Source: Ruminiclostridium sp.
GTDB lineage: Bacteria; Bacillota; Clostridia; Oscillospirales; Ruminococcaceae
Direction: 5' to 3'
Assembly: GCA_017942025.1 (NCBI GenBank)
Contig: JAGAVH010000060.1
Span: forward strand, 1 to 64,000
Length of the DNA stretch: 64,000 nt
The position numbers were made by a program, and so were the translations under genes. The notes below the pieces were generated by a model. It had not been told where the DNA came from. It did no database searches and saw nothing but the letters and a program-made list of their open reading frames with translations. How positions within the stretch are numbered: the stretch's first letter is position 1; every line of letters begins with the position of its first letter. Shown here piece by piece: positions 5,278 through 56,678 of this stretch.

Positions 5278-5676
5278 AAACGCTCTGTAATTACTGTACA
5301 GAGCGTCTCAGTGTGTAGACAAAGTCATTTGTCTACACACTGTCAGACGATGAAAAACGCACGTCAGCCATTGATTTTGACCTGTTCGGTCAAAATCGTC
5401 AACCGCCGCCGTCGGCATACGAACGGCAAGGATGCCGTAAAGCGAACACCAAAAGTGCATCACGACGATGCACAACAAAGTGTTCGCATAAGGTACGTTA
5501 GACGTCAGTTGACGAAGTAAGCAAAAATGCTTTAGGGGAGCCGTTTGCGGCTCCCCTAAAATTCTATGTTGCGATTTTTATTTATACACCTAAATTAATA
5601 TAAATTGCCTGCATTTTTGCGGTGCGTGAGTTTGTCTTCAGTCTGAAACGCTCTGTAGTTACTGTACAGAGCGTCT
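5278..5676. mobile_element. Structured MITE-like element, copy A, with 31-bp direct repeats
   Basis: Direct repeats of 31 bp (5278-5308 and 5646-5676, 30/31 identical) are two copies of a terminator hairpin with CGCTCTGTA stems. The 337-bp core (5309-5645) has imperfect 18-bp terminal inverted repeats, CAGTGTGTAGACAAAGTC against CAGACTGAAGACAAACTC on the other strand (14/18). Inside are a 15-bp stem hairpin at 5309-5342, several further hairpins, a terminator-like hairpin at 5531-5560, and the pair GCAAAAATGC (5521-5530)/GCATTTTTGC (5611-5620). TCAGAC (5343-5348) can pair with GTCTGA (5641-5646) to close the whole structure. No ORF of note is present. A shorter copy lies at 56377-56678. Confidence 0.85.
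5531..5560. terminator. Internal terminator-like hairpin of element A
   Basis: A stem TTTAGGGGAGCC/GGCTCCCCTAAA with a GTTTGC loop. The corresponding hairpin of copy B (56533-56562) has a compensated base-pair change (G-C to A-T) in the same stem. Confidence 0.6.
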
Positions 5677-8600
5677 TTTAACCATTGTTTTCTTTTTATG
5701 ATAAATATTATAAGGGTTACGATGCCCGCAACAAAGAGCAGAGAAAGTGCTACCGTAACTATTATCGTATTTGAAAGAGGGAAGGATTCCTTTTCTGCGG
5801 AGGAAGTATCCGTATTTACGCTTTCGCTGTCAGAGGAATTATCCGTTTTATTTCCGTTCTGACCTGATTCCGTATTGCCGCCGCTTTCCGAATTGTTGTT
5901 GCCGCCTTCAGGTACGGAGGAGGGTGTATCAGCTTCGCTCTGTGTCACATCCGCCGATTCGTTGCTGCTATCAGAAGAAGCGGAGCTGTTATCAGGTGCA
6001 GGTGTGCCGTCGGGCTTCGGTGTGTTGTTCTGATTGTCCTTTGTAGTGGTGGACGGCTTTTCCGAGGGCTTTGACGGAAGGGCAGGAGCTGGCACGGTTG
6101 TGATGGGTGGTATCACGGGATTATTGGGACTAAGGGGATTATCGTCTTCTATAGGATTATCATCTGTCGGCAATCTGTCGGTAGCCGGAGGATTTGTCTG
6201 AGCGGGGATGTTATCTCTGTATTCCTCATAATGACATCTTTCACAATGGCAGAGTACTTTGTTTCCCTGCTCGGTATAGCTGAAATCGTGTCCTAACGGT
6301 GATAGCTCGGTATAGGATATCTGCACCTTACATCTGCTGCAGATGTAGGAATCGTAACCGCCGTTAAGACAGTCAGGCTTTACTCTGATATATTCGCTGA
6401 AGGTGTGAGGACAGTATTCGTCGTCATCGCTTCCTGCGTCAAATCCGCTTTCTGAATTTCTGTCGAAATCCTTATCTATTCCATAGGATATGCTTTCTGT
6501 CCATACGTCTGTAAAATAGGTTATGCCGGGGAGAGTGTCTATATCCTTTATTGAGAAGGTGCCGAGTGATACCTTTCTTTCGCTGACCTTTCCTCCGTTT
6601 ACCTTGTAGGCGTCGCTGAAATCAAATATTGCGGTTATGTCTACGGTATCACTTCCGTAGTTGTAGGTGCATTCTGCCTTCATAGCGATAACGGGAGCGT
6701 TTACACCTGATTTATCGTAAGGCTCTATACTACAGATGTTTTTTGAAAGCTCAGTATCCGTGCCATCGGTATAAATATTGCCGTTTACGTTATTGCCGGG
6801 CTTGCCTGCGCCGAAGGAGGAAATATCCGTGCTTGTTGCTTTGGTCATTTTGCCCCACTCTATTGGCAATATACCACCGGTGTTTTTGTTTATGCCGTAT
6901 TGTTTGCCGTTAAGGGCCTTTTCCATTTTAAACGTGTAGGTACGAAGTGCATAATTGTTTTGCAGAGATACCTTTACTCCGTAATAATATCTGTCGTCTT
7001 CGCCGTAAATGATAACGGGAGTATCTCCTACGGGGTTGTTGCTTAAGGGGATGGTCATATCCGCCTCAAAATACATATATTTATTTTTATGAGAGGTGTC
7101 TGCAAAGGTAAAAATCGGTGGCAGAGTCTTTATACCCTTGTTTGCATTAGGCTCACTGTTCAGATAGCAGGACTCTGATAACAGTACCCTCACCTTATCG
7201 CTATCAGGATTCTTACCTGCTTCAATAAGAGATACCTGCGGTGCTTTTATACTTGTGTTAAAGGGAGAAACAAAGGGTGTTCTCTTCAGATAGGATGCTG
7301 TAATACCTCCTGATTCCTTTGTCTTGTTTCCGTTTTTATCCGTGATTACAAGACTGTCAGAAGCGGCAAAATCAAAATCGTATATCGTAAGACCTTTCCT
7401 GTCGCCTGACATATCGTCAAGCTCATATTTCAAATCGAATACAAGTCCGCCGGGATATACGGGAGTCAGAGTCTGGCTGTTATTGGATTCAGGATAATAG
7501 TAAAGGGAGGGTGTGCTTCCGCCCCAGAGCCATATAAGAGTACCGGGGATGATATTTTCGTGGCAGGTGTTGGGGTTATAGCTATACGTCTGATTTTCGG
7601 TAACCTGCCAGCCTCCCTTTGCCATAGAGGAAAGGTCAATCTGATTGTTCTTACAGTTTTCCTTTACAAGTGTATCCGAGCATAACACCTGCACCATTTC
7701 GGGAGTAGATTCCTTATGTCCTGAAAGATTGGCGGCTATTCTTGCATCGGAAATTGACGTTACCATCTTGCCACCCTTATTATAAAGAGTAGTTCTTCCG
7801 TCAAAGCAGAAATAGGTTGTGTATCTTGTTTCAGCGTCGCTGAATACGTTACCCACAATCTTCACGCCGTCGCTTATATGCATCTGGGTGATATTGCCTG
7901 CCTTTATTTCGGCAGACCATTTGTCCCTTTGAATATTGTCAGGGCCTGCAAGATGATTTGTTATACTTGTCGTTGCACAATGGGTAAGGTTGTTACCGAT
8001 AAATATATCGTTCCTTCCGAACTGGAAATTCCACACGTAGTCAAACACGTTGCCCGTGTATATGGAATTGCCGTCACCCTTCAGCTTAAAGCCGTTGGTC
8101 ATCTGCATAAATTCTATCCAGTTGCCTCTGAAGGAGGATTTCACAATATCGGTATCTGTAAGATAATAAGCATAGCTGTAGCCTACGCCGTAGTCGCAAA
8201 GACTGCCTGTGCCGTAGCTGTAACGCATTGCGGAACTATTTAATATACAACGCTTCATTATTCCGTAGGGGTTATACTGATTGTAGCCCTCTTCGATAAC
8301 TGAATTGTCAAAGGTACATTCTTCAAAAGCCGCTTCCATATATCCGAAGCGATAGTTTGATATATGCATTTTATCAAAGCGCACCTGATAGAAAACCGTT
8401 CCTGCCTTGTCGGTATCCTTTACGTATCCCACGTTATCGGGATATACTCGCATATTAAGGAAATAACCGCTTACCTTCCCTGTGTCTTTGCAATCCTGAA
8501 CAAAGCCGCCCGTCTTTTTAAGAGCGGAATTACCCACCGCAAGTGAGAAACCGCCGCCTACCAGCACTTCGTTCTGGGTATTCTTACCGCCGTTGCATAC

Positions 8601-10505
8601 TACTCTGTAGGTACTGCCGCCCCTTAACAGTATCGGAGTTGTTATAGTGAAGGTGCCTTCTACAACGAGGATATCTCCCGTTTTTGCAATCGTATCAAAG
8701 GCCTTCTGTATAGCGGGACTGTCACCGCCTTTATCATCGGCGGTAGCACCAAAATCGGTAAGATATACTACCTTTCTGCCGTTTTTTAAATCGTTATAAT
8801 ACTGTGTGGCTACGTTTTTGTCAAGATACAGCTCATCTGCGCCAACATTTCCGAGCTTTCCGTAGCCGAGAGTTTCATTTGAAGCGGGGTTATAAAAGCA
8901 GGACAGATCTATTTTTTTATTGGCATAGGGATCGTAATAAATGCAGGCATCCTTTGAGGATTTTTTCGAGAGATAGTATTTAGTATGCCATTGACTGCTC
9001 ATGCCGTTGTTTTTGGGGTTTATATTGTCGCTTATGATGTCATCCTTTTTATAGCTTGATATTTTATAGGAATTATCCATAATCTGAACGCCGGGAATGA
9101 TGGTGGATCTGGATTCGTTTTTGAAAAAGCCAAAGCGGAAAAGATCGGTATCGGTCATATCCGTTTCTTCGAATCGACAACCCGTGATGGTAGTGCCCTT
9201 GACGAGATTTATTATGCAGGAGCGTCCGTCTGCAGTCATTTTATTGTATTCGTTTTCTCTGTTATCATAGAGATTCGTATGTATTACGTAGGCGTCGGAG
9301 CCTTTGTAGGATTTGCTGTATTCCTTATATCCCAATGACTCGAACATATCGGCAATCGCCTTATAGGAGCAGTTTTTGAAAAGACATCCCGATACGGCGT
9401 TGACAGACGTGCCGGGAGAATAAAAATGGATGGAATACACGTTTTCGTAGGTGTTATTCGAGTAGGTAACGCCATAGGTGTCCGAAACGCCTTTACCGTA
9501 GAAAAAGCTCTTTACATAGTTATTGCTGAAGGTGGTAAGATTGGGACCTATACCCGTTGTGAAAAGAGGCAGATCCATATGTCCGTCTTTTTCGATAACA
9601 CCGCCGTAGAAATAGTTATCATGTATAAAGCAGTCGATAAAGTGCGTGCCGTCCAAAGCCACAAGACAAGGTCCGAAGGTGTTGTCCTGAACGTGTGTGC
9701 ACATATGTCCCTTTACCTGCTTTAACGGAGCGGCAAAGCCTGAAATGGTACAGTTTTTGAGTCTGAACCAGGATATATTCATACCCTCAAAGCAGTAATA
9801 ATTCTGAACAGGCTTTATATAAGGATTAAGGGTATTGGAATGTATGGTAGCGGCAGAGGACGATATATTGAAGGAGGAATGAGAAGCCTTTGCCACAAAG
9901 GTTATATCCGTAATGCTTCCGCCCTGATAGTAGGTCTGATTGGTGGCGGCTTTGAAAAGTGCGGTATCATTGCTTTCGCACACGAAAACAGTCTTTCCGT
10001 ATACGCCGTTAAGGTGGAACTCTCCCCATACCTTGATAGTGCCGCCGAAATAATATACGCCCTCTTCTATGCGTATTTCGTATCCATCCCTGCCCGAAGC
10101 TACGTTGTTAGCCTCCTCGTTTATGGCATAGGTCAGCATTTCGGTATAGTCGTAACCCTTCGCCGTACTTCCGGGGAATTTCAGCTGCCCTGAACTGTCC
10201 TTCAGCGTTTCGTAATAAGAGGGGAAAAGGTGATATTTTGTATTTCTGTAGCTGTCGTTGTTGGTATCGTTTTCCGCTTTTGCACCAACCTCGCCTATAA
10301 CACCGTAGTGAACGGCGTTATCGTTGGGATCGTAATTTATGGAATAAGTCCCTGTGTCGCTTACCGCAAGATCCTGAGAATTTACACCTGCCGTACCACC
10401 GGGATATACAATAGCGTTCTGCGGCAGCATAACGCTTCCCATAAGAACTGAAAGTAAAACTGATACAGAAAGCGCAAGAGAAAGAAATTTCGTTACTCTT
10501 TTCAC
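5595..10505 (-). CDS. Giant surface-anchored right-handed beta-helix protein
   Basis: Protein of 1636 aa. It has an N-terminal signal peptide (KRVTKFLSLALSVSVLLSVL), then two long parallel beta-helix regions. The second opens with a pectate-lyase-3-like segment YLTDFGATADDKGGDSPAIQ near residue 585. A beta-sandwich-like region follows, then a Cys-rich CxxC module (CSRCKV, CHCERCHYEE) near 1430-1480, a Pro/Ser/Thr/Asn-rich stalk, one transmembrane helix and KRKQW. The likely role is polysaccharide binding or cleavage at the cell surface; the substrate is not readable. The start is GTG at 10505 behind GGAGGT; the listed upstream TTG overlaps the promoter. The last ~26 codons are written by the direct repeat and end of element A. 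Confidence 0.8.
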   Translation of the reverse strand: MKRVTKFLSLALSVSVLLSVLMGSVMLPQNAIVYPGGTAGVNSQDLAVSDTGTYSINYDPNDNAVHYGVIGEVGAKAENDTNNDSYRNTKYHLFPSYYETLKDSSGQLKFPGSTAKGYDYTEMLTYAINEEANNVASGRDGYEIRIEEGVYYFGGTIKVWGEFHLNGVYGKTVFVCESNDTALFKAATNQTYYQGGSITDITFVAKASHSSFNISSSAATIHSNTLNPYIKPVQNYYCFEGMNISWFRLKNCTISGFAAPLKQVKGHMCTHVQDNTFGPCLVALDGTHFIDCFIHDNYFYGGVIEKDGHMDLPLFTTGIGPNLTTFSNNYVKSFFYGKGVSDTYGVTYSNNTYENVYSIHFYSPGTSVNAVSGCLFKNCSYKAIADMFESLGYKEYSKSYKGSDAYVIHTNLYDNRENEYNKMTADGRSCIINLVKGTTITGCRFEETDMTDTDLFRFGFFKNESRSTIIPGVQIMDNSYKISSYKKDDIISDNINPKNNGMSSQWHTKYYLSKKSSKDACIYYDPYANKKIDLSCFYNPASNETLGYGKLGNVGADELYLDKNVATQYYNDLKNGRKVVYLTDFGATADDKGGDSPAIQKAFDTIAKTGDILVVEGTFTITTPILLRGGSTYRVVCNGGKNTQNEVLVGGGFSLAVGNSALKKTGGFVQDCKDTGKVSGYFLNMRVYPDNVGYVKDTDKAGTVFYQVRFDKMHISNYRFGYMEAAFEECTFDNSVIEEGYNQYNPYGIMKRCILNSSAMRYSYGTGSLCDYGVGYSYAYYLTDTDIVKSSFRGNWIEFMQMTNGFKLKGDGNSIYTGNVFDYVWNFQFGRNDIFIGNNLTHCATTSITNHLAGPDNIQRDKWSAEIKAGNITQMHISDGVKIVGNVFSDAETRYTTYFCFDGRTTLYNKGGKMVTSISDARIAANLSGHKESTPEMVQVLCSDTLVKENCKNNQIDLSSMAKGGWQVTENQTYSYNPNTCHENIIPGTLIWLWGGSTPSLYYYPESNNSQTLTPVYPGGLVFDLKYELDDMSGDRKGLTIYDFDFAASDSLVITDKNGNKTKESGGITASYLKRTPFVSPFNTSIKAPQVSLIEAGKNPDSDKVRVLLSESCYLNSEPNANKGIKTLPPIFTFADTSHKNKYMYFEADMTIPLSNNPVGDTPVIIYGEDDRYYYGVKVSLQNNYALRTYTFKMEKALNGKQYGINKNTGGILPIEWGKMTKATSTDISSFGAGKPGNNVNGNIYTDGTDTELSKNICSIEPYDKSGVNAPVIAMKAECTYNYGSDTVDITAIFDFSDAYKVNGGKVSERKVSLGTFSIKDIDTLPGITYFTDVWTESISYGIDKDFDRNSESGFDAGSDDDEYCPHTFSEYIRVKPDCLNGGYDSYICSRCKVQISYTELSPLGHDFSYTEQGNKVLCHCERCHYEEYRDNIPAQTNPPATDRLPTDDNPIEDDNPLSPNNPVIPPITTVPAPALPSKPSEKPSTTTKDNQNNTPKPDGTPAPDNSSASSDSSNESADVTQSEADTPSSVPEGGNNNSESGGNTESGQNGNKTDNSSDSESVNTDTSSAEKESFPLSNTIIVTVALSLLFVAGIVTLIIFIIKRKQWLKDALYSNYRAFQTEDKLTHRKNAGNLY

Positions 10506-10532
10506 AAATAATACCTCCGACAATTTTTCTCT

Positions 10533-10561
10533 ATTATACAACAGCTATGTAATAATTTCAA
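10533..10561 (-). promoter_or_regulatory. Promoter of the beta-helix surface protein gene
   Basis: On the minus strand TTGAAA (10561-10556) is followed after 17 bases by a perfect TATAAT (10538-10533), about 28 bases before the GTG start at 10505. GGAGGT lies between. Confidence 0.8.
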
Positions 10562-56376: not shown

Positions 56377-56678
56377 AGTGCAGTAGGGTTTGTCCCTACT
56401 GCACTTTCAGCGTGTAGACAAAGTCTTGTCTACACGCTGTCAGACGATGAAAAACGCACGCAGACGAGGAAACTGACGTTGTCAGCGTACGATGGTACGG
56501 TAAGCGTCAGTTGACGAAGTAAGCAAAAATGCTTTAGGGAAGCCCTTTTCGGCTTCCCTAAACTTTTTGTATCACATATTTATATGCTCGCAAGACAAGT
56601 ACAAAATTTTACGCATTTTTGCGGTGCGTGAGTTTGTCTTCAGTCTGAGTGCAGTAGGGTTTGTCCCTACTGCACTTT
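56377..56678. mobile_element. Structured MITE-like element, copy B, with 31-bp direct repeats
   Basis: Direct repeats of 31 bp (56377-56407 and 56648-56678, identical) are copies of a terminator hairpin with AGTGCAGTAGGG stems. The 240-bp core (56408-56647) starts CAGCGTGTAGACAAAG and ends TTCAGTCTG, as in copy A, and shares the conserved blocks TCAGACGATGAAAAACGCAC, GTTGACGAAGTAAGC and GCGGTGCGTGAGTTTGTC. Compared with A it lacks about 97 bp of internal hairpins. Paired changes in the first hairpin (T-A to C-G) and the terminator-like hairpin (G-C to A-T) keep base pairing. Confidence 0.87.
56533..56562. terminator. Internal terminator-like hairpin of element B
   Basis: Stem TTTAGGGAAGCC/GGCTTCCCTAAA, equivalent to 5531-5560 in copy A, followed by CTTTTTGT on the plus strand. 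Confidence 0.6.

Follow-up and report, generated by a model that had tools for sequence, protein, structure and literature searches.

Two copies of a short element between doubled terminator hairpins

The window analysed here, a stretch of 64,000 nucleotides from Ruminiclostridium sp. (assembly GCA_017942025.1, contig JAGAVH010000060.1, positions 1 to 64,000), contains two copies of a short element, each lying between two copies of a terminator hairpin, with the following features.

5278..5308, no strand: left duplicate of the terminator hairpin of copy A, with an A-tract on the outer side; single-copy allele in the relative G057
5309..5645, + strand: element of copy A, 337 bp, long form; full-length match to covariance model R1 (locus L001)
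5309..5342, + strand: left-end hairpin of copy A, formed by the terminal repeat CAGTGTGTAGACAAA together with an inverted copy of it; this is helix 1 in the covarying structure
5622..5645, + strand: right end of copy A, GTGCGTGAGTTTGTCTTCAGTCTG, containing the right terminal repeat
5646..5676, no strand: right duplicate of the terminator hairpin of copy A, with a T-tract on the outer side
56377..56407, no strand: left duplicate of copy B's own terminator hairpin, unrelated in sequence to that of copy A
56408..56647, + strand: element of copy B, short form of 240 bp; row 1 in alignment A1
56648..56678, no strand: right duplicate of the terminator hairpin of copy B

In copy A, two 31-bp hairpins that are identical at 30 of 31 bases enclose positions 5309-5645, and the element ends in an imperfect terminal inverted repeat (CAGTGTGTAGACAAA / CAGACTGAAGACAAA), an arrangement already described in a first-pass annotation of this DNA. 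The two conserved blocks singled out there occur twice each in the window, once in copy A and once in copy B (56440-56459 and 56621-56638), and copy B is bounded on both sides by its own 31-bp hairpin. The doubling of two unrelated hairpins around the same element indicates a target duplication. No frame of at least 80 aa appears inside either copy in the open-frame list.

A 1,648-aa frame next to copy A (window 5595-10541, - strand) passes through the terminator hairpin and ends within the element. Near 5683-5688, G057 reads TAG where the window's genome reads TGG, and the gene of this frame therefore seems to have lost its stop codon.

The element adjoins terminator hairpins throughout the genome

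Extending the search to the window's genome (G000; 2.53 Mb, 80 contigs, 83% complete), we identified 49 right ends, copy A among them, by sequence with at most 3 mismatches, so that diverged copies are missed in this count. Of the 49, 46 adjoin a hairpin, its foot no more than 5 bases away, compared with 0.9% of 1,960 control positions taken further downstream at the same loci, and a T-rich stretch follows 40 of these 46 hairpins. Left ends were paired automatically with 35 right ends; a hairpin was present in 34 of 35 left flanks scored, with an A-rich outer side in 32 of the 34. One pairing, with ends 1,791 bp apart (L077), was removed as spurious, leaving 34 two-ended copies.

In 27 of these 34 copies the entire hairpin is present as a direct duplicate of 21-35 bp whose sequence is specific to the site. 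The 31 bp seen at copies A and B is the length of the palindrome there, and across the 27 copies there is no fixed duplication length. Three further copies have the same stem on both sides with a different loop (L004, L005, L044), and in four the left and right hairpins are unrelated (L003, L007, L073, and L078 at 3100). Such unrelated pairs also occur at L251 and L258, and recombination, deletion to a neighbouring terminator or another outcome of insertion could each have produced them.

Most copies fall into size classes of about 240, 310 and 335 bp, with one copy of 269 bp. Among the 34 copies, 23 lie between convergent frames, 6 between leftward and 3 between rightward frames, 2 have one side undetermined, and none lies between divergent frames. 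The outer sides of both hairpins keep what an intrinsic terminator requires, while the inner sides are left without a tract, as the first-pass annotation had anticipated from copy A. Being short, multi-copy, free of a transposase gene and bounded by terminal inverted repeats and direct repeats, the element has the properties of a MITE.

For 14 right ends no left end was found by the pairing rule. Five loci whose right ends first stood without a left end (L039, L072, L076, L077, L078) hold truncated or degenerate copies, together with, at L078, a whole copy whose left end the rule had initially missed; no transposase frames were seen by eye in the open-frame lists of L072, L076, L077 and L078. 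Nine of the ten further such right ends lie no more than about 300 bases from where a contig stops. Many contigs of G000 and of the genome G055 start or stop inside a copy, implying that the element breaks these assemblies. At L072, tandem repeats (~1480-1980) directly precede one right end.

Two sites show a further kind of variation in the hairpins themselves. The hairpins on either side of L071 (element 1767-2007 on the reverse strand) are mutually reverse-complementary, and the loop at the L006 site reads TTTT in G000 and G055 and AAAA in G057. Both patterns look like an inverted loop of the kind that template switching within a hairpin would give.

Relatives carry empty sites with a single hairpin

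The flanks of 17 sites were joined around one copy of the hairpin and searched in three close relatives. At 9 of the 17 sites, copy A included, a relative carries an uninterrupted allele with a single hairpin, which is the empty site expected under the proposal of insertion at terminators with doubling of their hairpin. The empty site of copy A in G057 aligns at 91% identity over 247 columns, and its one hairpin is identical over 31 of 31 bases to the hairpin on the right of copy A. The L045 site is 97% identical in G057, where the same hairpin stands once; at the site of copy B, G057 has a single hairpin that differs in sequence.

These single-hairpin alleles show that the element is mobile, by comparison of sequences rather than by any observed transposition event. 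Read from the occupied and empty alleles, the event is an insertion with duplication of the entire terminator hairpin, and the stem-loop is thus retained and doubled, not replaced as in IS1272-type insertion. Either of two findings would, according to the first-pass annotation, have spoken against insertion at terminators, and neither was made: the hairpins and core do not always occur together, and the genome holds many more copies than the one first described.

A conserved regulatory terminator module, residing immobile at fixed loci as a 3’-UTR element, would also be found at gene ends, in line with the convergent setting of 23 of 34 copies and the lack of divergent ones, and could account for the one site that is occupied in both G000 (L002, 335-bp form) and G057 (L134, 241-bp form). 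However, the empty alleles seen at 9 of the 17 sites refute this explanation, and it is further opposed by flanking sequences that differ from site to site and by the presence of the element in only 13 of 71 genomes of the genus, leaving it a negligible probability.

Distribution within the genus and the order

The 13 genus genomes that carry the right end have between 1 and about 50 matches each (15 in G052, 40 in G055 and 7 in G057). In genus genomes other than that of the window, a strict whole-hairpin duplicate was present in 21 of the 28 two-ended copies read. Across the order, the covariance model has matches in 38 of 295 genomes and 20 of 148 genera, and matches with E < 1e-17 span ten families. 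We read 16 of the order-wide loci; both flanks were present in 15, and 12 of these 15 have a duplicated hairpin at the ends of the element. No match to the element was found in plasmids.

A full-length copy (L340, 4484-4756) also resides in MT835999.1, a 14-kb record labelled Bacteriophage sp., whose other open frames look chromosomal by eye. This copy sits in a doubled, A+T-rich 17-bp palindrome that is not terminator-like. The description of insertion as occurring “exactly at terminators” is therefore slightly too narrow, and the non-terminator palindrome suggests that the feature recognised by the element is probably the inverted repeat.

Two loci carry unusual left ends. In G057 (L316, C14 4895-4927) a 33-bp left-end hairpin stands alone between two different hairpins, without core or right end, and in G073 (L116, C8, element ending at 1524) an insert estimated very roughly at 140 bp splits the left-end hairpin at its loop.

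A covarying fold in the core of the element

To describe the fold of the core, we used an alignment (A1) of 32 of 48 extracted short-form copies from 10 genomes. The RNAalifold prediction on this alignment was edited by hand, taking out four isolated pairs and one local hairpin and adding one long-range helix, to give a structure of 65 pairs. It consists of the left-end hairpin, a closing helix between the ends, a variable two-part stem, and the long-range helix (GCAAAAATGC/GCATTTTTGC, 10 bp), which covaries and has a hairpin inside it.

Pairing is kept in 98.5% of cells over the 65 pairs, compared with 88.9% in shuffled alignments. Twenty-seven pairs have changed at both positions, with 185 cells showing two-sided changes of this kind, compared with 44 in shuffles; none of 500 shuffles reached the observed pairing, number of two-sided pairs or cell count. 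Shifting the partners by 1-3 columns lowers pairing to 34-48%. The covariance analysis suggested in the first-pass annotation, together with the matches in 38 of 295 order genomes, thus shows from aligned copies that the core fold is conserved and covarying. That annotation had also put forward a structured RNA as an alternative to mobility; as a property of the core this idea is supported by the covariation and the substitution pattern described below, though not as a rival to mobility.

The fold could instead be kept at the level of DNA, through strand annealing or transposase binding, or by template switching inside inverted repeats, with no working RNA. Correlated change is not confined to the core, since the terminator hairpins at L071 and at the L006 site also change in this manner, as template switching would produce, and between tandem genes six elements lie antisense and three sense to transcription, an orientation that is uninformative on RNA sense. 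Against this explanation, more cells on the + strand of A1 hold G-U pairs (25) than A-C mismatches (7; one conserved G-U column excluded), with 21 compared with 6 distinct pair types, and the 16 order-wide copies, in an alignment fitted to the model, have 44 G-U compared with 8 A-C; these cells are not independent, and both the relatedness of the copies and the model-fitted alignment weaken the counts. An excess of G-U over A-C is expected if the + strand RNA works, but not from a DNA palindrome alone, and so favours RNA. Moreover, a motif around an internal loop, CGUCGGCGUAC...GUACGG, is present in 12 of the 16 order-wide copies (allowing one- or two-base variants), and the 10-bp long-range helix varies jointly. 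A purely DNA-level origin of the fold is quite possible, although we lean against it.

A known RNA family was rejected as an identification, as none of the 4227 covariance models of Rfam matched the window at its gathering score, with sub-threshold matches only for copies A and B; the 16 order-wide loci yielded only a neighbouring cobalamin riboswitch. The element combines a covarying fold for which these searches gave no Rfam family, strong matches that span ten families within one order, and a tie to hairpin-duplicating insertion.

Termini and target duplication suggest a link to IS1182

In the window's genome the left terminal repeat reads CAGYGTGTAGACAAA and the right one CAGACTGAAGACAAA, and the left repeat in other genomes is CAGCTTGTCGAAAAA or CAGCGTGTCAAAAAA. 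Similar ends abut hairpins in IS1182-family fragments from the same genus, namely CAGCCTGTAGACAAAG in G005, CAGCTTGTAGAAAAA in G082 and CAGTCTGTCGAAAAC in G063. The end of the fragment in G005 (CAGCCTGTAGACAAAGTC) agrees with the left end of the element (CAGCGTGTAGACAAAGTC) at 17 of 18 bases, and that in G082 at 14 of 18, both fragments scoring below the IS1182 family cut-off because they are partial. Sister copies carry CAGCTTGTCGAAAAAG, as does the IS1182 copy L190, such that terminal repeats are common to the element and IS1182.

The G082 fragment, from an uncultured Ruminiclostridium sp. contig, was used to scan named genomes, and 40 of the 59 loci that this gave in related Clostridia were examined for ends. 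Two ends were found in 12, of which 10 have a perfect whole-hairpin duplicate and 2 have none, by an end-finder that seeks inverted repeats and so favours copies with palindromic flanks. The ten are 1.51-1.60 kb long with hairpin duplicates of 21-38 bp, and left ends of the form CAGNYTGTC(G/A)AAAAA were found at L190, L191, L193-L195, L198, L207, L209, L213 and L219. Of their genes two were scanned, those of L194 and L193, and both are IS1182 transposases, with NF033551 scores of 401 and 405 bits at a cut-off of 270. The element and these IS1182 copies thus have the same target and the same target duplication (27/34 and 10/12 two-ended copies, respectively). This bears on the earlier view that a 31-bp duplication does not suit DDE transposons, which is not supported, since the Clostridial IS1182 copies make such duplications; hairpin and terminator seeking is also described for IS1272 and TnSha1 (PMC5678879, PMC4923244). 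At L165 (G063, C81, 1970-2080) an IS1182 copy and a second CAGTCTGTCAAAAAA end, which lies further out, share the single hairpin between them, a back-to-back arrangement of two elements.

The presence of IS1182 does not track that of the element. IS1182 was found in 3 of the 13 element-bearing genomes of the genus and in 21 of the 58 others, and, of 20 element-bearing genomes tested across the order, 7 had it. The idea of an autonomous partner within the genome of the window was rejected, since neither PF13751 nor NF033551 found an IS1182 gene there (83% complete), and none was found in G052, G055 and G057 (98, 90 and 97% complete). A partner in the same genome would support membership in the family without defining it, and given that no matching autonomous IS1182 accompanies the element, membership is likely rather than proven. 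IS1182 loci were also ruled out as carriers of the fold, with only 5 short weak matches in 74 loci.

The same observations could be explained by an identical element and target choice served by a different transposase, now lost or unseen by the IS1182 models, with the likeness of the ends due to shared ancestry or convergence. The missing co-occurrence with IS1182 and the lack of an IS1182 gene in G000, G052, G055 and G057 speak for this explanation. However, the termini resemble those of same-genus IS1182 fragments (17/18 in G005, 14/18 in G082), and full-length IS1182 copies show the same unusual duplication of a whole hairpin. Less weightily, a terminal-repeat search in four genomes gave no other transposase candidate in the three places opened among the matches listed, which were a site inside a coding region (L338), the lone left-end hairpin of L316 and an ordinary copy truncated where its contig stops (L339). 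We consider a different transposase unlikely.

These comparisons suggest that the element is a non-autonomous transposable element, a MITE by its size and termini, that is moved in trans by a DDE transposase of the IS1182 family (probability about 0.8). By its ends it is most likely a non-autonomous member of that family, and the ends and hairpin duplication of the IS1182 copies are its strongest link to a known machine. We read the patchy co-occurrence as pointing to mobilisation by passing IS1182 elements.

A model for insertion and for the role of the core

The element sits at the foot of a hairpin, in most cases a hairpin that is flanked by an A-tract and a T-tract and separates convergent genes. 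In the model that we propose, the IS1182-family transposase would place it there, and cuts at the two feet of the extruded hairpin would leave a whole hairpin on each side. Duplicates whose length follows the palindrome, and whose sequence is each site's own, fit such cuts, and we infer that the target is folded at the time of insertion. After insertion, each strand would still be read through the element into an intact terminator, and the structured RNA would be made as part of host transcript ends. Insertion of this form leaves the host terminators of both strands intact, and would account for the accumulation of tens of copies at gene ends.

We further infer that the core works as a structured RNA within these transcript ends, and our first guess at its role is a cis effect that favours persistence or mobilisation of the element. 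A broader reading, which we hold tentatively and at somewhat less than even odds, is that these are order-wide mobile structured RNAs, lodged by hairpin-seeking transposition between a gene and its duplicated terminator, whose RNA ends the mRNA and acts to keep or spread the element, with either transcript ends as its target in cis or the transposase as its target in trans. If so, the host would make a folded RNA as the last segment of its mRNAs without loss of termination.

With tens of sites, empty alleles and similar IS1182 elements, these genomes provide natural, replicated evidence for a transposon that duplicates an entire hairpin. A search of open-licence PubMed Central literature found no earlier report of this element family, and what appears new is a non-autonomous family with whole-hairpin duplication at scale and an order-wide conserved fold.

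Comparison with known systems

Group IIC introns insert beside terminator hairpins and carry a folded RNA, and are in these two respects like the window element, but they are not known to make a target duplication or to have inverted termini. The sub-threshold Rfam matches listed for copies A and B are not introns.

Bacterial MITEs, as characterised in a review (PMC10969869), are like the element in being shorter than 500 bp, multi-copy and intergenic, with terminal inverted repeats, direct repeats and a folded transcript; the window element differs in a duplication of 21-35 bp whose length follows that of the palindrome and in a covarying fold that is conserved across an order. Compared by their description in the same review, RUP, BOX and SPRITE of Streptococcus pneumoniae are likewise short repeats that include terminator-like or folded forms, but SPRITE is itself terminator-like, whereas the terminator at the window element belongs to the host site (PMC10969869).

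The IS1182 relatives IS1272 and TnSha1 are hairpin seekers that reportedly delete a stem-loop wholly or in part, without duplication (PMC5678879, PMC4923244). TnSha1, which carries IS1272, enters hairpins of which several are confirmed terminators, with partial deletion (PMC4923244). Like these elements, the window element targets a stem-loop, partly at confirmed terminators in their case, with no rule of primary sequence; unlike them, it doubles the entire stem-loop that they delete and has no transposase gene. In the model proposed for IS1272, the transposase acts on a cruciform, and joining at the 3’ feet removes the stem-loop, while joining at the 5’ feet (pathway b), drawn in 2017 but not observed there, would duplicate the whole stem-loop (PMC5678879). 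It is this second outcome that the window element and the Clostridial IS1182 copies display.

The closest counterparts are the Clostridial IS1182 copies (L190, L193, L194, L198 and others), which have the same CAG-type terminal repeats, abut hairpins and carry duplicates of 21-38 bp in 10 of 12 cases, but which are 1.5-1.6 kb long and have a transposase gene and no folded core like that of the window element.
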